IMG/VR virus record: IMGVR_UViG_3300009420_000038
Coordinates: 1 to 35,833 of that record
Strand: one strand, 5' to 3'
Length of the DNA stretch: 35,833 nucleotides
DNA from: a virus
Part shown: positions 2,916 to 26,842 of the stretch, piece by piece
Layout: each line of letters begins with the position of its first letter
Numbering within the stretch: the stretch's first letter is position 1
Program-made: the position numbers and the translations under genes
Notes under the pieces: model-generated
The model's database searches: none
What the model was told of the DNA's origin: nothing
The model's input: only the letters and a program-made list of their open reading frames with translations

Positions 2916-3285
2916 AAATACACATCTTAATCCTAAATCTTATAAGGATTTCTTTAAAGGAGTAGCTGAAGAATGTGAGGTACATGAGGATTTAGTAAGT
3001 GAGTTAATAAGATTTTTTTACAGTGAGGTTAGAACCAGTTTAGAAAATCTTGAATTTACACGTATGCAGTTACCTAATCTAGGAACTTTTATATTAAGAA
3101 AAGGAAGATTAGATAGAGCAATAAAAAGACACAAGGATATGTTGGGTAATATAGAAAAGACAACATATGTAGGATACGGTAATCATCTCCCTCTTAAAGA
3201 TAAATTAGACAAGATGGAGAATGCATTAAAAAGAGTACAAAAAGAAATAACAAATAAAAAAACCTGGAAAGATGAAAATAAATAA
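2899..3285 (+). CDS. HU/IHF-like DNA-bending protein
   Basis: From the ATG at 2899 the product is 128 residues. A TTG at 2887 would add four residues and is less likely. Residues about 12-80 match the HU/IHF layout: N-terminal helices (SYKDFFKGVAEEC, DLVSELIRFFYSEVRTSLEN) followed by the beta hairpin signature TRMQLPNLGTFILRKGRLDR, which parallels 'V.L.GFG.F...' of HU. A basic coiled-coil tail follows (KLDKMENALKRVQKEITNKK). IHF-like genes near the structural block are a known trait of crAss-like phages. It probably compacts or bends phage DNA for packaging, replication or regulation. It overlaps the preceding and following genes. Confidence 0.75.
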   Translation: MRLEDKNTHLNPKSYKDFFKGVAEECEVHEDLVSELIRFFYSEVRTSLENLEFTRMQLPNLGTFILRKGRLDRAIKRHKDMLGNIEKTTYVGYGNHLPLKDKLDKMENALKRVQKEITNKKTWKDENK

Positions 3286-3631
3286 ATTACTAAAAGGATT
3301 AAAAAATATTGATCATATAGTTGATGGTATTAAAAATAATATGTTCAAAAAAGACTGGATTGAAGATATTGCTGATCATAGATGGAAAATATGTAAGGGA
3401 TGTGATCAATTAGATACAATAGGAGGTAAATGTGCTGCCCCTGGAACACAACCATGTTGTGCGGACTGTGGATGTAGTTTAGCATTTAAAATGAGAGCAT
3501 TATCTGCATCATGTCCAAAAAATAAATGGAAAGCACATGTAAATGCAAAACAAGAGGCTGAGATTGTGAGGAAACTCAATAACCCAAAAAATATAGCGGA
3601 TAATGATTCTAACATTAATGTACAAAGATAA
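3272..3631 (+). CDS. Cys-rich putative zinc-binding protein
   Basis: This 119-residue protein has a central cysteine cluster: RWKICKGCDQLD (C-x2-C), GGKCAAPG, then PCCADCGCSLAFKMRALSAS with a following CP. This looks like a compact zinc-binding module with at least four ligand cysteines and extras. Flanking regions are basic and helical. It overlaps the HU/IHF-like gene by 14 bases, and its stop shares a base with the next start (TAATG). The same Cys pattern recurs in hypothetical proteins of Bacteroidota phages, from memory. Function is unknown; a nucleic-acid-binding or redox role is possible. The antisense ORF across 3406-3660 is a shadow. Confidence 0.72.
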   Translation: MKINKLLKGLKNIDHIVDGIKNNMFKKDWIEDIADHRWKICKGCDQLDTIGGKCAAPGTQPCCADCGCSLAFKMRALSASCPKNKWKAHVNAKQEAEIVRKLNNPKNIADNDSNINVQR

Positions 3632-15311: not shown

Positions 15312-16598
15312 ATGAGTTATTTTAATCACGCCTACAAAAAAACGTTCTTAGCAGCGAGTTGGGCACAAAAAGACGTAAAGACTGTCACATTAGGTGCTGG
15401 TCAATTAGGTATAGTTGACGCATGTACTTATCAGACTGTTGATACTGCAGTAGCTATTCCTGCTGGAACAGACTTCATGATTGTGCAGGGAAACTATAAT
15501 ACTGTAGACACATTGGGAGGTAACCCTCTTCACGGTGGATATTCTGAAAGTATTAAATCTAAAATTATTAAACCACAATACATTACTAAGATGTGGGTAT
15601 CTTGTTGTGTAGAAAAATGTTGTCCTACAATAACAATTACTGTTCCAGATACTTGTTATGACTGTGATCCAAACGATAGTGTAGTTTTAGCATCTAGTGA
15701 TAAAACAGGACATCCACAAATTCGTCTTGATATTAAAGGTACAGAAGTATTGAGAGCTTTAAACAGAAATGCTTATTTTATAGCAGATATGTCTGGATGT
15801 TGTCCAGCTGGTGGTTACTATTTAGGAGCTGACGTAGTTACTGCTTGGGTAGCAGCTATTAACAGAGATGCTTCTGGTATGGGTGACTTTATTACAGCTA
15901 CTCAAGGTGGAACAGCAGCAAATCCAACTAATGTAATGACAATTGAATTATGTCCATCAGAAACAGTATTTAATAACTGTTCATTTGATACTAGAGATGC
16001 TTATTCACATGAGACTCTTGATTTAGGTGTATCTTTATTAACTGCAGAAGGTAACCCTTGTGCTTCAAGTTGTGTAACATATGCAGCATCTACATGCCCT
16101 GTTTCTGCACCAAATGTACCAGCTGGTACCACTTTTGTAAATGGACTTCCTGCTTGGATTACTAGAACTCCAGCTGAAACTTTAGGAGAAGAAGTATTAA
16201 GAGAACTTATCATGGATGGTCGTTACAGACAAGATGGTGGATGGAATCAAGGTAATAAAGATTCTGCAAGATTCAGAGAAATTGAAGGTGGAGATAGTTT
16301 ATCTGATCAATTCCCTGTAACTACTACTGCTGCTGGAGTAGGAGGAGGTAAAGGAAGAAGAGCAACATACAAGTATTACTACCTTCAGCACACTGTACCT
16401 CGTTTCAATAATCCAACAGGAGTATTTGATAATGACCAGTATATTGTTGCTGTAGCAGTACCTTGTGGAGATACAGCTTTAGTTACAGCTACTGATACTG
16501 CATGGGAATTAATTGGTACATATGCTAGTATTGGAAGAGATGGGTTTGAGTACAAATGTACAGCTTCTGGTGTAGGATCATCTGATTGTTTATCATAA
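15312..16598 (+). CDS. Cys-rich, probably abundant virion protein
   Basis: This 428-residue protein starts MSYFNHAYKKTFL, an opening I recall in structural proteins of Bacteroidota phages. It contains 17 cysteines by hand count, clustered as SCCVEKCCP, DTCYDCD, SGCCP and NPCASSCVTY, which is high for a cytoplasmically made protein. The rest is strand-rich, with a conserved-looking C-terminal part (GKGRRATYKYYYLQHTVPRF, QYIVAVAVPCGD). Codon use is enriched in optimal codons like the capsid gene. A structured leader precedes it and a strong terminator follows, so it is probably made in large amounts. It could be a head-decoration, tail or fibre protein. No enzymatic motif is seen. Confidence 0.7.
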   Translation: MSYFNHAYKKTFLAASWAQKDVKTVTLGAGQLGIVDACTYQTVDTAVAIPAGTDFMIVQGNYNTVDTLGGNPLHGGYSESIKSKIIKPQYITKMWVSCCVEKCCPTITITVPDTCYDCDPNDSVVLASSDKTGHPQIRLDIKGTEVLRALNRNAYFIADMSGCCPAGGYYLGADVVTAWVAAINRDASGMGDFITATQGGTAANPTNVMTIELCPSETVFNNCSFDTRDAYSHETLDLGVSLLTAEGNPCASSCVTYAASTCPVSAPNVPAGTTFVNGLPAWITRTPAETLGEEVLRELIMDGRYRQDGGWNQGNKDSARFREIEGGDSLSDQFPVTTTAAGVGGGKGRRATYKYYYLQHTVPRFNNPTGVFDNDQYIVAVAVPCGDTALVTATDTAWELIGTYASIGRDGFEYKCTASGVGSSDCLS

Positions 16599-16646
16599 GT
16601 AAAGAAGAGAACCGCTAGTAGTATATAGCTAACATAGAAAAAGAAG

Positions 16647-16675
16647 GGGGAGACACTAAGTTCTCCCCTTTTTTT
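16647..16675 (+). terminator. Strong rho-independent-type terminator
   Basis: GGGGAGA (16647-16653) pairs with TCTCCCC (16662-16668) around an eight-base loop, followed at once by seven T residues. It closes the transcript containing the Cys-rich virion gene. Confidence 0.88.
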
Positions 16676-16691
16676 GTTTTATATATCTATG

Positions 16692-16712
16692 TTTTTTTGT
16701 ATATTATTAATA
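16692..16712 (+). promoter_or_regulatory. Promoter-like T-run/G/TATATTAT element
   Basis: Seven T residues, G, then TATATTAT (16700-16707) and TAATA lie right after the terminator and 39 bases before the start codon at 16746. TTG at 16674-16676 is 23 bases upstream of the box. The same core occurs at 10385 and 24933. Confidence 0.42.
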
Positions 16713-16745
16713 GATAGTAATATTACACTATAAACAACTAACAAC

Positions 16746-17291
16746 ATGGCAGGTAAACATATATTAAGTCTTGAAGTCTTAGATGTAGCTAATACTGAAA
16801 TACTAGTAATAAAAGACACAAGTGAATATTCAGATAATCTAGGTACTGATTGCGGTGATCTAGCTATAACACCACCTGGATTTAATGCTCCATCCCAAAT
16901 TGAAGTTAAACCTAACTTTGATTTATCTATAACAGCTTGTGCACTTGGCACACAAACAACACAATGTAAAACATCAAGATCAGTACTAGGAGATGGTGTA
17001 TATATCATTAGGTATAGTATGGCTCCAGGTGATAAAGTATACGTAGAGTATAATCATTTGCGGTTAGCTAATCTTATGAAACTATATTATGAGAAACTGT
17101 GTCAGTTAGATATAGATAAATGTAGTCCTTCTTCAGATAGAGAAGGTGTATTAAGACAAATGTATGATATTAGAACTCTTATGGATGCTGCTAAATCACA
17201 AGTTGAGTACTGTGGTAGTCCAGCAAAAGGAATGGAATTATATAATTATGCAAAAAGGAAATTAGAAAAGATTAATTGTAACATCTGTTAA
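16746..17291 (+). CDS. Cys-containing structural protein of unknown function
   Basis: This 181-residue protein has two parts. Residues 1-105 are strand-rich (HILSLEVLDVANTEILVIKD, LAITPPGFNAPSQIEVKPNF, DGVYIIRYSMAPGDKVYVEY). Residues 106-181 are helical with cysteines near the end (KINCNIC). It has eight Cys in all. The beta domain with 'ITPPGF' recalls a conserved protein found next to Cys-rich fibre genes in Bacteroidota phages, from memory. It may be a fibre-anchoring or tail-accessory protein. It is first in the unit that contains the giant adhesin. The antisense ORF over 16679-17008 is a shadow. Confidence 0.65.
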   Translation: MAGKHILSLEVLDVANTEILVIKDTSEYSDNLGTDCGDLAITPPGFNAPSQIEVKPNFDLSITACALGTQTTQCKTSRSVLGDGVYIIRYSMAPGDKVYVEYNHLRLANLMKLYYEKLCQLDIDKCSPSSDREGVLRQMYDIRTLMDAAKSQVEYCGSPAKGMELYNYAKRKLEKINCNIC

Positions 17292-17309
17292 ACCAATAAA
17301 ATAAAAAAA

Positions 17310-17453
17310 ATGTCAGAAACAAAACCTAATACATGCGCACATTGTAGCAAACCTTTTAGTTGCGGGTGCCAGAAAATAAATGCAGTAGATGGTAAGACGG
17401 TGCATAAAACATGTAAGCCTGAATATGATCTTAATGTTATAAATAAAAAGTAA
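17310..17453 (+). CDS. 47-residue zinc-finger-like protein
   Basis: This short ORF starts after an A-rich leader and stops three bases before the giant gene's ATG. The peptide has C9-x2-C12, C18-x-C20 and H32-x2-C35 (CAHCSKPFSCGCQ, then KTVHKTC). This is a compact set able to bind one zinc ion. The tight fit between two coding genes and the ordered Cys/His pattern make it likely real. Partial matches to similar small proteins beside fibre genes of Bacteroidota phages are recalled from memory. It might assist folding or metal loading of Cys-rich neighbours, but this is speculation. Antisense ORFs covering it are shadows. Confidence 0.75.
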   Translation: MSETKPNTCAHCSKPFSCGCQKINAVDGKTVHKTCKPEYDLNVINKK

Positions 17454-17456
17454 ATA

Positions 17457-20400
17457 ATGGCTAGTTTTAATAATGTAAAAAATCCCACAACTAATCTTGC
17501 ATATATAGTTAAAACTAGCACAGGTAGTTGTAATACCGCTGCAAATATAACCTGTAAAGTAGTTACAAAACCTTTTTGGCAAAGTCCAAATGGTATTCTT
17601 TCAAATGTTGCAGGTGATCCTTTATTAGCAGATCCTTTAACAGCTGTGGGTACTAAATTGAAAGTATCTTACAGTGCGACCAACGTGCAATGCTGGTGGA
17701 TACTTGAAGCTGTTGATGAAACAACATGGAATAGTGGCGCAACAAGCGTATGTGGAGTTCCTTACACTAGTGTTACACCAATGTATGCTAATCACTATGG
17801 ACCTGTTGGTGGAATTGGACCTTGTATATGTTGTACTAATGGACAGTTTATGCCAACTAATATTGTTATTGGTTGTATGGATCCATTAGCAACTAACTTT
17901 GACCCAACAGCTACTTGTGATGAAGATTGTCTTTATCCTCCACCATGTGATGATAATTGTAATGATCCTTTAGCAAATAACTATGACCCTACTGCATTAG
18001 GTTGTTGTGACGGAACAGACTGTTGTACATATAACTATTCTTGTAATGGTAGTGTTCAAAGATTTAATAACAGTTGGCCAGAACAAGATTCTATTGTTGA
18101 AAGCACTAAAACAATATCTCAGTGGAATAAAGAATACGGAATTACATTTACTGATTCAAATCCAAGACCATCTTCTGCTAGAAATCATTCAAATGATTCA
18201 GGGTATATTTGGCCAAACTTAGATTATTTAAATACATCTTTAAGATTTTTACTTAGAGGGGGATTAGGTATAAACATAAATAATGATCCTGGAGGTCAAG
18301 GGTGGGCTAGTGGAAAACAGCCTAGTTCTTATTTAACTTCACCTACTCAATGGAATTTTGCTACTGATTTTATGAATTATATCATATCCGGTAGTTCTAG
18401 CCGTGGAGAAGGATCAGGAGAAGGATCAGACAATGATGTAGATCCAAAAATATATTGGGATACAGATCTTAGTAAGTCATACTATAGGGTTAAAACAAAC
18501 ATGATACCTGATAAAAATGGATTTAAAAACCCAGGATCTAAAATTATTACTGAAAGAGTATCAGGCGGTACAACTTCTACTGGATTATATTATCATATTA
18601 TTCCAGCAGGAGAGCTAATGATATCTAAAGGATTTGAACCTTCTCTTACAAACACTTCTGGAAAAAGATTTAAAACATGGAGAACATTTACAGATTCATT
18701 AATTAAAGATGGTATGCCTCGTATGCTTTCAACAGCTTCCTTTGAAGATGTATCAAACTGGGTAATGTCATATGTAGAAACATTAGTAAATGTAGAAAAG
18801 GATAATACTAAAGCTGCACCCCAGTTTGTACCAGAAACCATGCAATGGATGGTTCAAAAATCAACAGGTTGTAACTGTATACAAGATCCACTAGGTCCTT
18901 ATTCAGATCAAAATCAATGTGAAACACTGTTGAGTGTACCAGGAAGTGGTAGTGGTAGTGGTTCATCTAATTGTTGTGCATGTGTATATGGTTGTATGGA
19001 TAGTACTGCATTGAATTATGACGCAACAGCTACATGTGATGATGGAAGTTGTTTAACCTGTGATCCTCTTGTTATTAAAGTCTGTGATACCAGTCCATAC
19101 ATGCATGGATACCTATGTGATACTCAAGTTTCATCGACATGTTGGATGACACCTGCTACCTGTGCAAATAGTATAGCACTTAAGGCTGAATGGGGATTCG
19201 TAAATTATGGTGATGTTGTACATGTAGACTATACTCAGGCAAATGATCCTAATCCATCTGGTACACCTGATTATGAAGCGTGTTATCAATACATAGACCC
19301 TACTGATCCAGATTATCTTGCATGGATTAGTTCTAATACACCTTCTAATTTTCAAGCATCACAACAAATCGCAATACTAGCCAATCATGCTCCAGGTTTA
19401 GTTCTAACTAATATACCATATGATGGTATCTCTAATGTTTCAACATGTCAATTTTGTGGTGAAACTCCTGGATGTACAGATCCTACTGCAGATAACTATA
19501 ATGCTGCAGCAACTGTAGACGATGGTTCCTGTACTTACTGTATTTATGGTTGTATGGACTCAGACTCTGGTAGTGGTGCAGGACAATTTTTCTCAGATTC
19601 AAATGGATATGCTCCAGGAGCAGTTTATGATTGTGCTATTTCAACAACAGTTCCAACTTCTGGTACTTTATGTACATCAGGAACATGTTCACCAGGATAT
19701 ACTTATTCAAATTATAATCCTTGTGCAACATGTGATGACGGTTCATGCATTACGCCAACATTTCATGATTGGTCTCCATGTTCAGATTTAGGTATAATTC
19801 TTAGTATAACTGCACCAGGTTCTCCAAATGATTATGCATCTCAAGAATGGTTTTGGCAAAATGTTGGTACACCTATTAATGGAGAAACAATAAATATTGT
19901 ATCTGGAAATCCTAGCGTGAATACATGTTATACGTATGTAGGGATTTCTCCTACAAATACTGGAACAATGTTATCTCCTTTACCATTAATGGTAGATTGG
20001 GAATTTGGAAAATCACACAATACAGATTGCCAATCTTGTTCATGTGTATATGGTTGTACTGACGTTACGGCTTGTAATTATGATGTTAATGCTACTTGTG
20101 ATGATTTATCATGTTGTAACCTAACAGGATGTTTAGATCCAAGTGCATATAATTACTGCAGTACATGCTGTTGTGCGGGTCCTTGTACACCAACCAACAT
20201 AGGATGTACAGATCAAAATGCTAATAACTATGACCCTACTGCAAATATATCATGTACATACTGTTGTGCATATACCGTAATAGGATGTACTGATCCAACT
20301 GCTGCTAATTATAATCCATCAGCAACTGTAGAAAGTGTACCAAGTACATGTTCATTTTTAAATCAGTGTAAGAGAGAAGCTAGAGTATTTGGTTCTGATC

Positions 20401-23400
20401 TTACTAAAAAACTTGATGTAGAATGTTCATTTGCAAGTGATGTATATAAAGAATATAGAAAAGAAAGATATGGTTTATCAAATTATTGTGGTTCTGATCT
20501 ACCAGATCATTTAAATCAAAAAGTTATATGTGATTGGGAAGATAGTAAAAGACCTGCATATTTAAGTTCTACATTAGTTGTACTTGATAAATATTCATAT
20601 CCAATTGTAGATGGAGAAATTAATTGGTTTGATCCGTTAAGACCTATATGGACTTCTTTTCAGTGTGGTTTAACATCTGATGTTGATATTGATATGTATT
20701 TTAATTATGATACAACATCAATGGGACTAGCTGCAATACAAAATCAAAGACAAGCAATTGAAGCTTGGGTTGCTGGAATGGATGTTCCATTTGGTGGAAA
20801 TATATACCATACTTTAGTTTTTGGAGAAAGATGGGTAGATTGGGGTACAGCAGCACTTACAGGAGTATGGAATAATTCAGGAAGTTGTGGAGGTGTAGGT
20901 ACAGGATGTACTCCTGGAGTTCCTGTGGACCATGGGGATTGTCCGTGTGTAAGTTCTGCATCTGATGCTGTTACTATAACTACTATGAGTCAATCTAGTA
21001 AATTTTGGTCAGCTGTAGCATGGGGTAATAATACTAATAGAGAGTTCTATGCAGCAATGCCTAATACTGTAATAAATGGTTCATTAACTCATTTAGGATT
21101 TCCACCTCAACTAAGCAAAAGTCAATTATTATGTGTAAATTTTGCTGACGAATCTGCTGCTTGTTCTATTGCTGATGGAGGTGTAGGATTACAAGCTCAA
21201 CCATATCATGTTTCTCCTGGTCCAGCAACATATGGAATTACAGAGTGGCATCAAGCAACAGATGGGACAGGTACTTCAACTAATGCTGCAACAAGAGGGG
21301 GATCTGATTCAACAATTACAGAATGTTGGAAAGGTGATTATGATTTTTGGATTGAAGAATATAAGAAACATTTACTTAGAGGTAGTAAATATAAGGCAAC
21401 AGTAGTTATATATCCTTGTAAACCTATTGGTACTTTACCATCATTAAACTCACAAACTTCATTTCCATTACATGTATTAGGAGGAGTAGATAGTGGTAAC
21501 AATTCTCCTAAGGATGGTAAATATTCAGTAGGAACTACACCTCAAAATGATATTGTTGATTTAAAAAGAATTGAAGAAGGAAATCCATATTGGGATACAT
21601 CTAATCCAAATCAACCTGCTTCACATACATTTGGATATGGTGGATTAGATAACTATGGTTGGATTGCCAATGTAAGAGAAAGATCATTTGATGCTAATAT
21701 ATTTAAAGCAGAACTTGAACAATATTGGGACCCAAATAGATTAGTATGTGATAATTCAGAATGTATTGTTGTTAATGTAGTAAATCAAAATAATGTAGCT
21801 ATACCTAATTATGATATTTACTTAGATGGTGGTTTTGAAGGTAGAACTGATGAATATGGTAGATTAACATTTAGTATACCAAATGCAGCAGTTAAAACAA
21901 ATCATATTATTAACTTATGTTTATGTCTTACAACAACAGGTGATTGTTCTCAACAAAGTATAAAAATTATTGTAGAAGAGGAATGTGCACCAAAATGTTG
22001 CGCAGACCCAACTGGGGTTAACTGTAGTGATAATTACACACCAGCTAGTCCACAAATATTTGAAGGATGTACAGATCCAAATGCAAGTAATTATAATCCA
22101 TTAGCAAATGTTAATGATGGTACATGTTTATACTGTAATCCTTTACTTAGTATAACAGAAACTCATGTTAATGTTACTTCACAAGGAGCATCAGATGGAA
22201 GTATAAACATAACTGTTATTAATGGAACTACACCTCTTACATATTTATGGAATAATGGTGCTACAACACAAAACTTAACAGGACTTTCAGGTGGTATATA
22301 TACCTTAACTGTAACAGATGCTAGAAATTGTACTGCTATTATAATTGTAAGAATTAATGAAGATCCAGACATTTATGGATGTATTTCACCTGCACCAGGT
22401 TATTGGCCTAATATAAATGGACTTGATCAGAATAATGTAAATTGTGCATATCCATGTAGTGATGATGGAACAGATACAGGAGTTATGGAAGGTTATCAAT
22501 ACTTCTGTTATAATCCGGATGCAACTAAAGTTGATGATTGCTGTGAAGCAGGCTGTACAGATAGTTCAATGGTTAATTTTTGTAATTCATGTAACTACGA
22601 CTGTAACTTAGAAGATATAAATGCAGCTGGATATACACAAAATCTTGGTTGGGATAGTTGTTGTCAGAGTTGTATATATGGATGTACTAATCCTGCTGCT
22701 GGAAATTATGATGCAGCAGCTAATTGTGATGATGGTTCATGTGAATTTTGGTTTAGTTGTGTTGAAGCTACTTGGAATGTTGATGAAGTAACAAACAATG
22801 GATTTTCATTATCCGCTTTGTCCATATTTGACGATACAACTTGTCAAGCAGGATATTGTGATAGTTCATTCTTCTTTCATGAATTAGCGGTTTACTATTC
22901 TAGCGGAACGAATGGATCATTAGTGCCTTCTTCAGAACTAACAATGGTTAACTCTGTTGGAGGATCATCAAGTATGGGCTTCTTATGTGGTGGATGTGAT
23001 TGTCCAGCTTCTAATTTAGACCCACTATATGGATCAGTAATGCCATTAGGTACAATTGGAGGTTATACTACTGAAAATCCTTATGGACCTACTGCTTCAG
23101 GAAGTTGTTATGCTGCAGAACAAATATTAGATTTTGGTAATAATTATATATTTCCTACATGGGATGCTTATAGAGACTGGCATAATAATGGAATTAATGG
23201 ATCATCTGGTCCTCAAGTAACCTGTTCAGGAACTCAAATTCATATGATTCCAGGTCCAGGTGGAGGTGCTAATATAGATACTGAAAATGCTATACACTCT
23301 AGTATTAACATTGCAAATGGAGGTAATGGTGATATGTTTGCTCCAACTACTGGAGAAAATTGGATTTATTTTACATCTTCTGTTCCACAATGTACAGGTT

Positions 23401-24887
23401 TTACAGACTGTGAATGTGAAAGAGATTATAATATGGTAGGTGATTGGTCATCACAATCACTTTGTGAAGCACAAATTGATACTTGTTGTGGAACCGTAGT
23501 AGTTCCTCAAATTGGAGGGTGTATAGATAATGGATATGTTGGGCAACATCTAGACTTTGGAGCTCAAGGAGCAACTACAGAACAAGAATGGTGGAACGGA
23601 ATGAATGGATCTGGAGTAAACTATGGCCTACAAACTACTGACATGACAAGTTGTGTACTAGGTATAACTCCTGTAAATCAGATAGGGAATGGTGGTACTG
23701 GTACATATGGAACTGGATCACAAGCTAATTACCCAAGTGGTGTTGCAGCATATAATTATGATCCAAATGCAACATTTGATGATGGTTCTTGTTGTTATTG
23801 TTCTGGTTGTGAAGATATAACAACTCAGGCTAATAACTATGAAATAGGAGCATGTTATAATGATGGCTCATGTGTAGCAGCTGTATATGGTTGCACGCAT
23901 CCTAATGCATTTAACTACTACCCAGGGGCAACTAATGATGATGGTTCATGTGAATATACTGGATGTTTGGATTCTACAGCCTCTAATTATTTAACATTTG
24001 AATTTAATGGTTTAACTACATTTACTTGGGCTGGTTTTACATATGATTATACTGCTATAACATACTCATGCACTGCTTCAACTTGTTGTAATTTCCCTGG
24101 TCTTGCATGGGATTGTATACCATCTCAATTAAATAGCCCTAAATTTTCAGATAATGGCGGTAGTGAAATGGTAGCACCGTATGACTTTGCTAGTAGACAA
24201 GATTTATCAACCATGAACCAGATGAATGATGCTGTACGAGGAACAGGTCCTCAAACATGTGGTGTGGATATTTCACAAGGTAATCATCTATCAAGTATAT
24301 TTTATATATGGTCAAATGCTACAACATTAGACTCATATGTTAATTTTACCAGTTGGTATTTCTGGTTTGCAAATAATCAAACTTATGCATGTAATCAAAC
24401 ACAAATACAAATGACTGCATTGTATACTGATACAGGATGGACAGCACCAGATGGTACAGGAGGATTTACAATTGGAAATAATGATCTAAATAATAATGTA
24501 AATCTAACTTATGCTAGACCACATGTATTGGTAAGAATTTCAATAAATAAAGCTAATAGTTCAGGTGGTAGTGCTATATCCTTTCTTAATCCTTATGATG
24601 CTGATACATCTTGGGCTACATTAAGAGATACTGCAATTGTTCTTGATCAATTAGATGGAACAGGTCCAGGTCCTAATATTGTAGGAATGGATTGGGATGA
24701 AGTTATGACTACTTTTGCTTCACATGGAACTGGATCAGATGGTTTCCATTATGAATTACTTGCTCAACAAAGTGCTGCTACATGTTTAACCATAACAACG
24801 CACATGTGTTTAGAGGTACCTGGTGGCATACATGCTACTTGTGCTGAATGCTCTGGTGATACTTCAAATAGCTGTGGACCATGTTAG
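17457..24887 (+). CDS. Giant Cys-rich mosaic adhesin/fibre protein (2476 residues)
   Basis: This is the largest complete gene. The product has about 145 cysteines by hand count (near 6%). Roughly 15 repeats of the type GC(T/M)DPxAxNYxPxATxDDGSC occur from residue 139 to about 2190, in four clusters. They resemble thrombospondin type-3-like calcium-binding repeats of marine Bacteroidota. Between them lie unique modules: residues about 185-490, a central module (966-1436), a carboxypeptidase-regulatory-like beta domain (1438-1480) and a SprB-type repeat (1564-1635). Ser/Gly linkers (GSGSGSGSS, RGEGSGEGSD) join parts. No signal peptide or enzymatic motif is seen. It probably forms a surface appendage that binds the host. 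It ends in TAG, and short ORFs in other frames inside it are shadows. Confidence 0.88.
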   Translation: MASFNNVKNPTTNLAYIVKTSTGSCNTAANITCKVVTKPFWQSPNGILSNVAGDPLLADPLTAVGTKLKVSYSATNVQCWWILEAVDETTWNSGATSVCGVPYTSVTPMYANHYGPVGGIGPCICCTNGQFMPTNIVIGCMDPLATNFDPTATCDEDCLYPPPCDDNCNDPLANNYDPTALGCCDGTDCCTYNYSCNGSVQRFNNSWPEQDSIVESTKTISQWNKEYGITFTDSNPRPSSARNHSNDSGYIWPNLDYLNTSLRFLLRGGLGININNDPGGQGWASGKQPSSYLTSPTQWNFATDFMNYIISGSSSRGEGSGEGSDNDVDPKIYWDTDLSKSYYRVKTNMIPDKNGFKNPGSKIITERVSGGTTSTGLYYHIIPAGELMISKGFEPSLTNTSGKRFKTWRTFTDSLIKDGMPRMLSTASFEDVSNWVMSYVETLVNVEKDNTKAAPQFVPETMQWMVQKSTGCNCIQDPLGPYSDQNQCETLLSVPGSGSGSGSSNCCACVYGCMDSTALNYDATATCDDGSCLTCDPLVIKVCDTSPYMHGYLCDTQVSSTCWMTPATCANSIALKAEWGFVNYGDVVHVDYTQANDPNPSGTPDYEACYQYIDPTDPDYLAWISSNTPSNFQASQQIAILANHAPGLVLTNIPYDGISNVSTCQFCGETPGCTDPTADNYNAAATVDDGSCTYCIYGCMDSDSGSGAGQFFSDSNGYAPGAVYDCAISTTVPTSGTLCTSGTCSPGYTYSNYNPCATCDDGSCITPTFHDWSPCSDLGIILSITAPGSPNDYASQEWFWQNVGTPINGETINIVSGNPSVNTCYTYVGISPTNTGTMLSPLPLMVDWEFGKSHNTDCQSCSCVYGCTDVTACNYDVNATCDDLSCCNLTGCLDPSAYNYCSTCCCAGPCTPTNIGCTDQNANNYDPTANISCTYCCAYTVIGCTDPTAANYNPSATVESVPSTCSFLNQCKREARVFGSDLTKKLDVECSFASDVYKEYRKERYGLSNYCGSDLPDHLNQKVICDWEDSKRPAYLSSTLVVLDKYSYPIVDGEINWFDPLRPIWTSFQCGLTSDVDIDMYFNYDTTSMGLAAIQNQRQAIEAWVAGMDVPFGGNIYHTLVFGERWVDWGTAALTGVWNNSGSCGGVGTGCTPGVPVDHGDCPCVSSASDAVTITTMSQSSKFWSAVAWGNNTNREFYAAMPNTVINGSLTHLGFPPQLSKSQLLCVNFADESAACSIADGGVGLQAQPYHVSPGPATYGITEWHQATDGTGTSTNAATRGGSDSTITECWKGDYDFWIEEYKKHLLRGSKYKATVVIYPCKPIGTLPSLNSQTSFPLHVLGGVDSGNNSPKDGKYSVGTTPQNDIVDLKRIEEGNPYWDTSNPNQPASHTFGYGGLDNYGWIANVRERSFDANIFKAELEQYWDPNRLVCDNSECIVVNVVNQNNVAIPNYDIYLDGGFEGRTDEYGRLTFSIPNAAVKTNHIINLCLCLTTTGDCSQQSIKIIVEEECAPKCCADPTGVNCSDNYTPASPQIFEGCTDPNASNYNPLANVNDGTCLYCNPLLSITETHVNVTSQGASDGSINITVINGTTPLTYLWNNGATTQNLTGLSGGIYTLTVTDARNCTAIIIVRINEDPDIYGCISPAPGYWPNINGLDQNNVNCAYPCSDDGTDTGVMEGYQYFCYNPDATKVDDCCEAGCTDSSMVNFCNSCNYDCNLEDINAAGYTQNLGWDSCCQSCIYGCTNPAAGNYDAAANCDDGSCEFWFSCVEATWNVDEVTNNGFSLSALSIFDDTTCQAGYCDSSFFFHELAVYYSSGTNGSLVPSSELTMVNSVGGSSSMGFLCGGCDCPASNLDPLYGSVMPLGTIGGYTTENPYGPTASGSCYAAEQILDFGNNYIFPTWDAYRDWHNNGINGSSGPQVTCSGTQIHMIPGPGGGANIDTENAIHSSINIANGGNGDMFAPTTGENWIYFTSSVPQCTGFTDCECERDYNMVGDWSSQSLCEAQIDTCCGTVVVPQIGGCIDNGYVGQHLDFGAQGATTEQEWWNGMNGSGVNYGLQTTDMTSCVLGITPVNQIGNGGTGTYGTGSQANYPSGVAAYNYDPNATFDDGSCCYCSGCEDITTQANNYEIGACYNDGSCVAAVYGCTHPNAFNYYPGATNDDGSCEYTGCLDSTASNYLTFEFNGLTTFTWAGFTYDYTAITYSCTASTCCNFPGLAWDCIPSQLNSPKFSDNGGSEMVAPYDFASRQDLSTMNQMNDAVRGTGPQTCGVDISQGNHLSSIFYIWSNATTLDSYVNFTSWYFWFANNQTYACNQTQIQMTALYTDTGWTAPDGTGGFTIGNNDLNNNVNLTYARPHVLVRISINKANSSGGSAISFLNPYDADTSWATLRDTAIVLDQLDGTGPGPNIVGMDWDEVMTTFASHGTGSDGFHYELLAQQSAATCLTITTHMCLEVPGGIHATCAECSGDTSNSCGPC
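17871..18030 (+). repeat. TSP3-like repeat cluster 1 (two units)
   Basis: Encodes GCMDPLATNFDPTATCDEDC and a second unit with NDPLANNYDPTALGCCDG. Asp-rich, Cys-flanked units like these usually bind calcium. Confidence 0.75.
18990..20356 (+). repeat. TSP3-like repeat cluster 2 (about seven units)
   Basis: Units start near 18990 (GCMDSTALNYDATATCDDGS), 19470 (GCTDPTADNYNAAATVDDGS), 19548, 20052, 20130, 20202 and 20283. They are separated by unique inserts of varied length, so the array is interrupted rather than tandem. Confidence 0.75.
20357..21763 (+). other. Central unique module of the giant protein
   Basis: About 470 residues with low Cys content and ordinary mixed composition begin at CKREARVFGSDLTKKLDVEC and include INWFDPLRPIWTSFQCGLTS and IYHTLVFGERWVDWGTAAL. 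It looks like a compact folded core onto which repeats are attached. No family is recognised. Confidence 0.5.
21764..21900 (+). other. Carboxypeptidase-regulatory-like beta domain
   Basis: Encodes VVNVVNQNNVAIPNYDIYLD then GGFEGRTDEYGRLTFSIPNA. The 'V.V....G.p..n..V...G....T+..G...' pattern is that of CarboxypepD_reg-like domains, common as stalk modules. Confidence 0.6.
22065..22136 (+). repeat. Single TSP3-like repeat between beta domains
   Basis: Encodes GCTDPNASNYNPLANVNDGT followed by Cys, the cleanest unit of the set. Confidence 0.8.
22145..22365 (+). other. SprB-type repeat domain
   Basis: Encodes VTSQGASDGSINITVINGTT, then PLTYLWNNGATTQNLTGLSG and GIYTLTVTDARNCTAI. This is the signature of SprB repeats, the beta-sandwich units of flavobacterial surface adhesins involved in gliding: 'G.I...V.GG..PYtY.WsnG.tt.....L..G.Y.vtVTD..gC'. 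It points strongly to a Bacteroidota context. Confidence 0.85.
22680..24000 (+). repeat. TSP3-like repeat cluster 3 (about five units)
   Basis: Units appear near 22680 (GCTNPAAGNYDAAANCDDGS), 23750, 23808, 23889 (GCTHPNAFNYYPGATNDDGS) and 23962. A long Cys-poorer insert lies at about 22750-23740. Confidence 0.72.
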
Positions 24888-24909
24888 ATAATAATAATAA
24901 ACTAAAAAA

Positions 24910-24940
24910 TTGTATAAAACATAAATGTTTTGTATATTAT
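24910..24940 (+). promoter_or_regulatory. Promoter candidate, TTG-N20-TATATTAT
   Basis: TTG at 24910-24912 and TATATTAT at 24933-24940 are 20 bases apart, the spacing expected for Bacteroidota -33/-7 elements. TTTTG comes just before the box as in the sister sites. The start codon at 24960 is close, leaving a short leader. Confidence 0.48.
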
Positions 24941-24959
24941 AATATAAAGAAATAAGTAT

Positions 24960-26144
24960 ATGCTTCCTATAAATAAAAAGAATGGCCCTTGTGATCCTAT
25001 TTCATCCAACTGTGTTGTATGGCAAGGACCTGATTTAGATTGTGTAGACATATGTAATGGAGACAGTATTAGTTCTGTTATAGCTGGTTTATGTGAAACA
25101 CTAATATTATTACAAAGTTCTTCTGGTTCAGGTGGAGGATCTCATTCAATAAATTTATCAACAATTAATCAAACTACTTTATCAGGAGGACCAGCAACTA
25201 CTACTAATGAGTTAATTCAATTAATAATTGATAACATTAATAGTGGAGGTAATAGTGGAAGTGGTGGTAAAATATGGGATTGTACAGATACTTTAGACTG
25301 CACACTAGCAATTCCTTCATGTTATGACTCTTCATCTGGTGTTAGTTTAGTTAATCCAGGTACACTTAGTGTTATCATAACAGATTTAATGAATCATCAT
25401 TGTTCTTCAAATCATCAACAAGCAGCAATGGTTTCAAGTATACAATCAATAAATGATCAAGTAATACAATTAAAAAAAATTCCAACAGGAGATCCTAATC
25501 CTACACTACAATCTGTATGTGTAGATACAGTTAATACAAATCCTCAACCACTTGCTAATTTAGTAAATAAAATTGAAGTTGATTATTGTAAGACTAAAAG
25601 TAATCTTGGTACTACTGAACAAGTTGTAGCTGCATTATCAAAACAACCCATCAATCCTATGCCGTTAGATAGTGCAGTATTTGGAGGAGGTACTTTTGTA
25701 CCAAGTATTCCTAATAATCCAACTAGTATTGCAGAAAGTTTTAATGCTTGTTGGAGGTTAATTAATGATCTAAGAGCAGCAGTAACAACTTTACAAACTA
25801 GTAGCGGAAATAATGGTATATTAAAAAGAATGGTTGATATAAACACATTCTATGCTGTTGGTGCAAGTTGTGGTCAAGCAATATCTAATGCCGTAACTGG
25901 TGGAGATTACTGTGTAGATTTATGGAATAGTTCAGGAATAAATTTAGATACTAATGTTAGAGCATATAATCAACCATCAGGTGAAGCAACATATGAACTT
26001 GCTACTGGTACTTGGCATGCTGTTTGTCCAGGGACAACTGATGTAGCACAATACCTAGGAGGATATTCTGGTACTAAAAGTCCTCCATTCTGGAGTGCAC
26101 GTACAGTTGGTTGTACTGGTTCTGGAGGTGGAAGTGAAGGATAA
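24960..26144 (+). CDS. Cys-rich tail-fibre-like protein
   Basis: This 394-residue protein opens with a motif I recall from fibre proteins of Bacteroidota phages: SNCVVWQGPDLDCVDICNGD followed by SISSVIAGLCETLILL. It is probably a virion-attachment region. Ser/Gly linkers follow (SSGSGGGSHS, SGGNSGSGGK). A long helical middle is present (HQQAAMVSSIQSINDQVIQL) and the C-terminus is strand-like, with an aromatic patch ending in TGSGGGSEG. It contains 16 Cys by hand count. It is downstream of its own promoter candidate and upstream of an FN3 protein, so a receptor-binding or fibre role is plausible. The antisense ORFs at 25583-25846 and 25970-26209 are shadows. Confidence 0.7.
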   Translation: MLPINKKNGPCDPISSNCVVWQGPDLDCVDICNGDSISSVIAGLCETLILLQSSSGSGGGSHSINLSTINQTTLSGGPATTTNELIQLIIDNINSGGNSGSGGKIWDCTDTLDCTLAIPSCYDSSSGVSLVNPGTLSVIITDLMNHHCSSNHQQAAMVSSIQSINDQVIQLKKIPTGDPNPTLQSVCVDTVNTNPQPLANLVNKIEVDYCKTKSNLGTTEQVVAALSKQPINPMPLDSAVFGGGTFVPSIPNNPTSIAESFNACWRLINDLRAAVTTLQTSSGNNGILKRMVDINTFYAVGASCGQAISNAVTGGDYCVDLWNSSGINLDTNVRAYNQPSGEATYELATGTWHAVCPGTTDVAQYLGGYSGTKSPPFWSARTVGCTGSGGGSEG

Positions 26145-26169
26145 AAGCTGATAATAAAAAAATAAAAAA

Positions 26170-26757
26170 ATGGCAAGTAATACAAGTAATAATGGATGTT
26201 GTTCATCATGTGGACAAACTAGCTGTAACAAGTTATCTTGTGGATGTGGAGATCATTCATTAAGTACACCATGTAATTACACTGGACAAAATTGCACAGA
26301 AGGAACACATGAAAAATGTGAAGAAGTATATTGTGAATACTGTGTAGCAAATTGTGATAATAAACTTGAGTTTGAAATATCAGCAACATCAAGTTTTATT
26401 ATAGAAAAAGGTGAAAGACTATCTGCTACATTACAAAAATTAGTTCAATATCTTATTGCTCCTGCTTGTGTTACAGGAAATAATTCAATATTAAATATTC
26501 AAGCAGGTACTACTACAAGCACGAGTGTACAAATAACATGGGATGCATTGCATGTTGGTAATTCAGCTACAGCTCTTCAAGTTAGAGTTAAAACAATTAC
26601 AGCAGCTGGATGGACAAATATTACACCTAGTTTATTAACAACTGCAACGTCATATGTTATAACAAGTCTCACACCAAATACTGCATATATGTTTAGTATA
26701 AAAGGAATGGGTACAACATGTACTTCCGCATATATATATCATGATACAACTCCTTAA
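26170..26757 (+). CDS. Cys-rich protein with a fibronectin type III domain
   Basis: This 195-residue protein has an N-terminal Cys-rich segment (residues 10-65, 12 Cys), including CNKLSCGCGDHSLSTPC and EEVYCEYCVANCDN. A short helix, ERLSATLQKLVQYLIAPACV, follows. A beta-sandwich of the FN3 type covers about 104-190 (STSVQITWDA, ALQVRVKTITAAGWTNI, SYVITSLTPNTAYMFSIKGM). FN3 domains are frequent in phage virion proteins and help surface binding. The 'SCGCGD..LSTP' opening recurs in Bacteroidota-phage structural proteins, from memory. It is last in the Cys-rich cassette and is followed by a terminator. Confidence 0.78.
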   Translation: MASNTSNNGCCSSCGQTSCNKLSCGCGDHSLSTPCNYTGQNCTEGTHEKCEEVYCEYCVANCDNKLEFEISATSSFIIEKGERLSATLQKLVQYLIAPACVTGNNSILNIQAGTTTSTSVQITWDALHVGNSATALQVRVKTITAAGWTNITPSLLTTATSYVITSLTPNTAYMFSIKGMGTTCTSAYIYHDTTP

Positions 26758-26807: not shown

Positions 26808-26842
26808 AGAGACTCAGGGTTAACACTGGGTCTCTTTTTTTT
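26808..26842 (+). terminator. Strong rho-independent-type terminator
   Basis: AGAGACTCAG (26808-26817) pairs with CTGGGTCTCT (26826-26835), ten pairs with one G-T, around loop GGTTAACA, followed by a T-run to 26842. It closes the adhesin cassette. Confidence 0.9.

Follow-up and report, generated by a model that had tools for sequence, protein, structure and literature searches.

The window analysed here, the whole of a 35.8-kb virus record from IMG/VR (IMGVR_UViG_3300009420_000038; 35,833 nt), carries six consecutive cysteine (Cys)-rich genes, all on the plus strand, which we refer to as g1 to g6 (Table 1). The lengths of their products are exactly those given in a preliminary description of this sequence, and their Cys contents run from 4.0 to 10.6%, compared with 1.0% for TerL, 0.4% for the portal, and 0% for the major capsid protein (MCP). 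Most genes in the window contain 0–2.6% Cys. The gene-by-gene count proposed in that description placed 8 of the 29 genes in the window at 4% Cys or above, and six of these eight are adjacent (P = 0.0012 by shuffling of gene order). The other two (1298–1501, 6.0% Cys, and 3272–3631, 6.7% Cys) encode small CxxC-type proteins.

Table 1. Positions of the Cys-rich genes, their internal features, and the associated hairpins in the window.
Feature	Position	Strand	Remarks
g1, 428 aa, 17 Cys (4.0%); capsid-auxiliary (AUX) slot protein	15312..16598	+	Position as crAss001 gp36
Intrinsic terminator between g1 and g2	16640..16675	+	14-pair stem, T tail
g2, 181 aa, 8 Cys (4.4%); tail hub protein A (THA)-like	16746..17291	+	Fold and gene order
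g3, 47 aa, 5 Cys (10.6%); zinc-finger-like protein, THB slot	17310..17453	+	CxxC-x5-CxC-x(~11)-[H/C]xxC
g4, 2476 aa, 145 Cys (5.9%); putative giant mosaic fibre/adhesin	17457..24887	+	~14 Cys repeats, hub-adaptor, SprB repeat
g4 repeat units, residues 139 and 167	17871..18017	+	
g4 repeat unit, residue 512	18990..19052	+	
g4 repeat unit, residue 672	19470..19532	+	
g4 four tandem repeat units, residues 859–968	20031..20360	+	71 genome loci match
g4 hub-adaptor segment (CC/CG..D..LCDWQ), residues 981–1045	20397..20591	+	Conserved
g4 conserved Cys-containing domain closing core, residues 1429–1506	21741..21974	+	
g4 repeat unit, residue 1537	22065..22127	+	
g4 SprB repeat, residues 1567–1603	22155..22265	+	Pfam PF13573
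g4 repeat unit, residue 1742	22680..22742	+	
g4 repeat units, around residues 2088–2188	23718..24020	+	
g5, 394 aa, 16 Cys (4.1%); putative fibre protein	24960..26144	+	N-terminus C-x-x-ISSNCV-WQGPD--C---C-GD
g6, 195 aa, 14 Cys (7.2%); Cys-rich N-terminus and fibronectin type III domain	26170..26757	+	
Intrinsic terminator 3' of g6	26808..26835	+	10-pair stem, T tail

TerL, portal, and MCP matched crAss-like PHROGs (2.4e-64, 5.8e-88, and 1.2e-29, respectively), as did several further virion proteins of the window, and TerL is 25–27% identical to its counterparts in Bacteroides crAss-like and Flavobacterium phages. With proteins named as in PMC10172136 (AUX, THA or gp38, THB or gp39, rings, and muzzle), the gene order of crAss001 is MCP-gp33-R4-R3-AUX-THA-THB-R2-IHF-R1-MUZ. 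The window reads MCP (11748), 13460, a ring protein (14507), g1, g2, g3, and g4 to g6, followed by an SbcD-like gene, 28120, 28641 (R2 slot), 29312 (R1 slot), and a muzzle-like gene (30222). The ring-AUX-THA-THB-R2-R1-muzzle order of a Crassvirales-like phage is thus present, interrupted by the fibre genes, which lie after the THB slot and before that of R2; because the order matches, g1, g2, and g3 occupy the AUX, THA, and THB slots, respectively. The block is therefore likely to encode the capsid-decoration, tail-hub, and tail-fibre proteins of a marine podophage of the crAss-like type. It differs from crAss001 in that the fibre genes of the latter sit after the portal gene and are Cys-poor (0–1.3%), whereas the window has Cys-rich fibre genes placed 3' of the hub genes; in addition, no sequence similarity to the window proteins is detectable in the crAss001 tail hub. 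The closest annotated portal, with 34% identity over 81%, belongs to Leptolyngbya phage Lbo-JY46 (L128; L numbers denote loci and G numbers genomes used for comparison), which is recorded from a cyanobacterium.

A link to the hub by fold comes from g2. Its AlphaFold model (19 sequences; predicted local distance difference test score, pLDDT, of 88) is a beta-sandwich followed by three helices, the fold common to THA (gp38) homologues; the crAss001 THA sequence suggests the same architecture, including a C-terminal Cys pair. The best viral Foldseek match was the phi17:2 structural protein R9ZWW9 (171 aa, TM 0.80/0.84, E 1.1e-9) and the third was cr128_1 A0A7M1S1J4 (167 aa, E 2.2e-4). Linking these entries to genes by phage and length, the first has the length of phi17:2 gp58 and the second that of the cr128_1 THA homologue found by sequence search. 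Among 19 homologues of g2, C36, C65, C74, C178, and C181 do not vary and C119 is almost invariant. The THA of crAss001 is likewise Cys-rich (11 Cys in 215 aa), and cryo-electron microscopy revealed disulfides among the THA, THB, R1, and R2 hub and ring proteins (PMC10172136).

On either side of g2, the evidence takes different forms. The gene for g1, of which 41 relatives were found, lies 3' of the ring-protein slot and 5' of THA, the place held by gp36 in crAss001, and it is by this position that we put it in the AUX slot. Among 25 homologues, C99 and C385 of g1 are both present in 13, both missing in 12, and never found singly; on a separate tree, built from neighbouring genes, both residues change together twice. 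As for g3, 11 of the 18 homologues have His and the other 7 have Cys three positions ahead of the final Cys, and because this one ligand alternates between His and Cys in all 18, g3 looks like a zinc finger rather than a disulfide protein; Pfam zinc-finger models gave no match to it. Searching the PDB directly with the g1 and g2 sequences gave nothing, their profiles gave only chance matches, and tblastn of g1, g2, and g4 against annotated phages gave no match.

Most of the Cys in the block reside in g4, which as a whole protein has no Pfam or PHROG match. It contains approximately 14 copies of the motif GC-TD--A-NY---A--DDGSC, for which we found no Pfam family and, in a literature search for DDGSC, nothing relevant; across residues 859–968 the AlphaFold model reached a pLDDT of 84–95 over the first ~50 residues. 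A fragment of g4 matched the SprB repeat (31.3 bits, cut-off 28), a match not listed when the full 2476-aa product was scanned. Its hub-adaptor segment exists as a separate 75–190 aa protein immediately after g3 in ten relatives, most of which have Cys-free fibres (L010, L020, L022, L024, L025, L027, L029, L032, L034, and L038), and the domain closing the core shares 46% identity with the last part of the split protein (190 aa) in L010. These features suggest that g4 is a mosaic of host-surface modules, the Cys repeat and the SprB repeat, borrowed from the host surface and carried on a phage adaptor. Comparable in principle are the crAssphage tail proteins with tandem BACON repeats (PMC6949934), in which a host-type extracellular domain is also repeated and host binding has been proposed; BACON is an Ig-like domain, in contrast to the ~27-residue Cys/Asp unit and SprB repeat of g4.

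Searching with the stretch at residues 859–968 yielded 651 distinct repeat units at 71 bacterial genome loci, almost all in Flavobacteriales or other Bacteroidota, with three in Neomarinimicrobiota. By eye, the bacterial repeat proteins start with signal peptides, and four of the six scanned carry the Por_Secre_tail sorting domain of the type IX secretion system (T9SS). These exported Flavobacteriales proteins share with g4 the same unit and the same invariant Cys; g4 differs from them in having a phage adaptor and neither signal peptide nor T9SS tail. When units were selected without requiring Cys, C2 and C21 were both retained in 625 of 627 distinct units. Optional Cys follow the same tendency, C(-2)/C(16) being both present in 13 units, single in 5, and absent in 31, and C(-6)/C(27) both present in 8, single in 1, and absent in 40. 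From these patterns we infer that, within each unit, C2 is paired with C21 and that optional pairs are gained or lost jointly.

The repeat extends beyond these bacteria. It is present in a protein of Synechococcus phage S-CAM3 that is annotated as a virion structural protein, and its profile finds one unit in mammalian perforin-2 (6u23_A 329–353, E 0.0015). Foldseek likewise returned only perforin-2 chains, in short matches (0.6–1.5 Å) of which the top ones spanned 24 residues at a root-mean-square deviation of 0.6–0.7 Å. A truncated EGF-like domain joins the MACPF and P2 domains of perforin-2 (PMC6989145), and we read the residue numbers as placing the unit in this EGF-like linker region of perforin-2/MPEG1 (6u23, 6u2j). 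We saw no further relation between g4 and this metazoan pore-forming protein, which has a single unit.

The remaining two products resemble fibre components. C11, C18, C28, and C32 of g5 are invariant in 12 homologues, and C19, C24, C26, C50, and C58 of g6 in 13. The g6 product matches the fibronectin type III family (PF00041, 30.4 bits, cut-off 25) as well as phrog_4971, a major tail protein. By eye, fibre proteins of phi17:2 and Lbo-JY46 have comparable Cys-rich N-terminal segments, and the conserved N-termini of g5 and g6 look like fibre-docking segments.

The preliminary description had treated the six genes as one cassette, bounded by terminators and encoding a co-adapted extracellular fibre system. 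A T-tailed hairpin does follow g6; the terminator scan found none upstream of g1 and one between g1 and g2, so that the transcription unit would be g2–g6 rather than g1–g6. A single fibre system is contradicted by the hub and capsid-auxiliary slots of g2 and g1 and by the replacement of g4 with Cys-free fibres in some relatives. In six of these (L020, L022, L024, L027, L029, and L034), the Cys content of the fibres at the g4 position is 0%, yet g2 and g3 remain Cys-rich, as does g6 where covered. Conversely, a g5 of ~1% Cys adjoins a Cys-rich g4 in L016–L018, and L010 combines a g1 of 1.0% Cys with a g4-type open reading frame (ORF) of 11.1%. Given these g4 swaps and the independent Cys levels of g1 and g5, we reject co-adaptation of the whole cassette as unsupported. 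Since Cys levels vary gene by gene, Cys content tracks each protein's own history, and the block therefore combines old conserved Cys in the hub and docking parts with imported Cys in g4. Among four larger relatives, with median ORF Cys contents of 0.9–1.2%, three have their principal Cys-rich virion stretch at the equivalent of g1–g6, of which G006 retains just the hub, the adaptor, and g6. Two of the four whose ORFs were scanned (G001 and G005) have an additional Cys-rich cluster elsewhere, and G002 has a fragment of one.

Taken whole, the explanation we favour, and consider probable, is as follows. The g2 product would form the collar (THA) at which fibres dock; g3, in the THB slot, would be a small protein that binds zinc; and g4, g5, and g6 would be fibre or adhesin proteins, g4 docking via its conserved adaptor segment and possibly binding the host. 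The g4 Cys would have arrived with the repeat common to T9SS-exported Flavobacteriales proteins. Most Cys outside g3 would form disulfides once particles have assembled and left the cell, presumably after lysis, as in the THA, THB, and ring proteins of crAss001. The disulfide-locked virion exterior proposed in the preliminary description is thus partly supported: it agrees with the THA fold of g2 and its crAss001 precedent, and with the exported-type repeat and paired Cys of g4; it fits in part g1, through C99/C385, and g5 and g6, through their invariant N-terminal Cys; and it fails for g3.

Several observations weigh against this explanation. The bonds themselves are predicted, and g4 has an odd number of Cys (145). 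Because the g2 profile aligned with those of THA gp38 homologues at an hhalign probability below 1%, we regard g2 as THA-like by fold and position and not as a proven member; no PDB match identifies it as THA, and the THA-like gp58 of phi17:2 has only 3 Cys. Similarly, hhalign found no similarity between the g1 profile and AUX (gp36) homologues. The phage repeat units are related, so their co-variation counts are not independent, and the Foldseek matches of the repeat are weak (E 3–9). Finally, L010 g1 has lost C115, C118, C164, and C223 together, which could reflect two disulfides or equally one zinc site.

This last loss, which takes a CxxC plus two Cys at once, is also an argument for the strongest rival, in which most of the Cys would bind zinc taken up in the cytoplasm and the block would encode zinc-stabilised structural proteins. 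Although the clear ligand pattern of g3, with its His/Cys swap, and the 17 CxxC pairs of g4 fit such a scheme, we consider it unlikely for the block as a whole, since His makes up just 1.3% of g4, its repeats are common to exported proteins with signal peptides and T9SS tails, optional repeat Cys come and go in twos, and the crAss001 hub holds disulfides by cryo-electron microscopy (PMC10172136). We give still less credence to g4 being a secreted host-modifying protein rather than a virion fibre. Phage proteins that combine the same repeats with a signal peptide and a T9SS tail do exist, as described below, but no signal peptide is visible at the g4 N-terminus, and Por_Secre_tail was found neither in g4 nor in its C-terminal 192 aa (a 17.1-bit overlap with the SprB fragment lies below the cut-off); furthermore, g4 contains the hub-adaptor segment and, in every relative that has the repeats, is flanked by hub genes on one side and fibre genes on the other. 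Least credible is lineage drift, or the hitch-hiking of host-derived segments of no structural role: g1 and g5 Cys contents do vary several-fold and Cys-free fibres replace g4 in L020–L034, but the retention of C2/C21 and the presence of g2, g3, g5, and g6 Cys among the few invariant columns had already weakened the idea.

The preliminary description had also proposed a search for thioredoxin, glutaredoxin, or sulfhydryl oxidase genes. In the relatives, this returned nothing that counts as a disulfide-forming enzyme, with DsbA and DsbB not searched for. Glutaredoxin was absent from the ten relatives searched, and Evr1_Alr had no match in a search whose control was silent as well. Thioredoxin-fold genes occur in three relatives; the G001 thioredoxin (WCGPC) adjoins a gene read as ribonucleotide reductase and for that reason likely serves it, and the remaining thioredoxin-fold proteins lack CxxC. 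Three of the latter (L130:12055-12381, L147:15265-15636, and L114:1426-1767) have signal-like N-termini and adjoin genes for Cys-rich exported proteins.

Three relatives (G002, G004, and G005) encode, along with the virion block, proteins that carry 5–24 copies of the g4 repeat and whose T9SS tail scores above the curated cut-off (L147:15985-19338 in G005, L136:1-1965 in G002, and L155 in G004); L156–L183 hold cargo of this kind as well. Relatives of this cargo are found on 29 viral contigs, most intact ones beginning with a signal peptide, and 12 of the 14 phage repeat-cargo proteins scanned matched TIGR04183. The literature searched held one prior description of phage-encoded T9SS cargo, that of Cryophage (PMC7468147), whose proteins have the sorting domain but are not of the present repeat type; its cargo consists of enzymes and a PA14 protein, in contrast to the Cys-repeat arrays here. 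It is possible, and we suggest it only tentatively, that one host-type repeat is used twice, in g4 as part of the virion fibre and in a protein with signal peptide and T9SS tail, encoded by the phage, which the infected Flavobacteriales cell would display on its surface. Equally tentatively, both proteins might bind a common partner or compete for it, resulting in receptor mimicry, superinfection exclusion, or homotypic adhesion. These findings bring together three subjects that tend to be treated separately: the disulfide-stabilised tail hubs of crAss-like phages, phage use of the type IX export route, and a Cys repeat, as yet without a name, that many exported proteins of marine Flavobacteriales contain and that is present in perforin-2. 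The repeat and T9SS tail also point to a host group for these otherwise hostless marine crAss-like phages, which is probably Flavobacteriales.

Near the cargo genes we noted a 1312-aa Cys-rich phage protein with SprB repeats (L147:9491-13429; Pfam 4.8e-20), and two signal-peptide proteins of 345–354 aa adjoining T9SS cargo genes (L136:3123-4187 and L130:1679-2716), which gave no Pfam or NCBIfam match and are possibly outer-membrane barrels. In the window itself, the gene at 3272–3631 encodes a 119-aa CxxC-type protein with 8 Cys, and similar proteins of 106–117 aa, also with 8 Cys, were present in all four relatives scanned.

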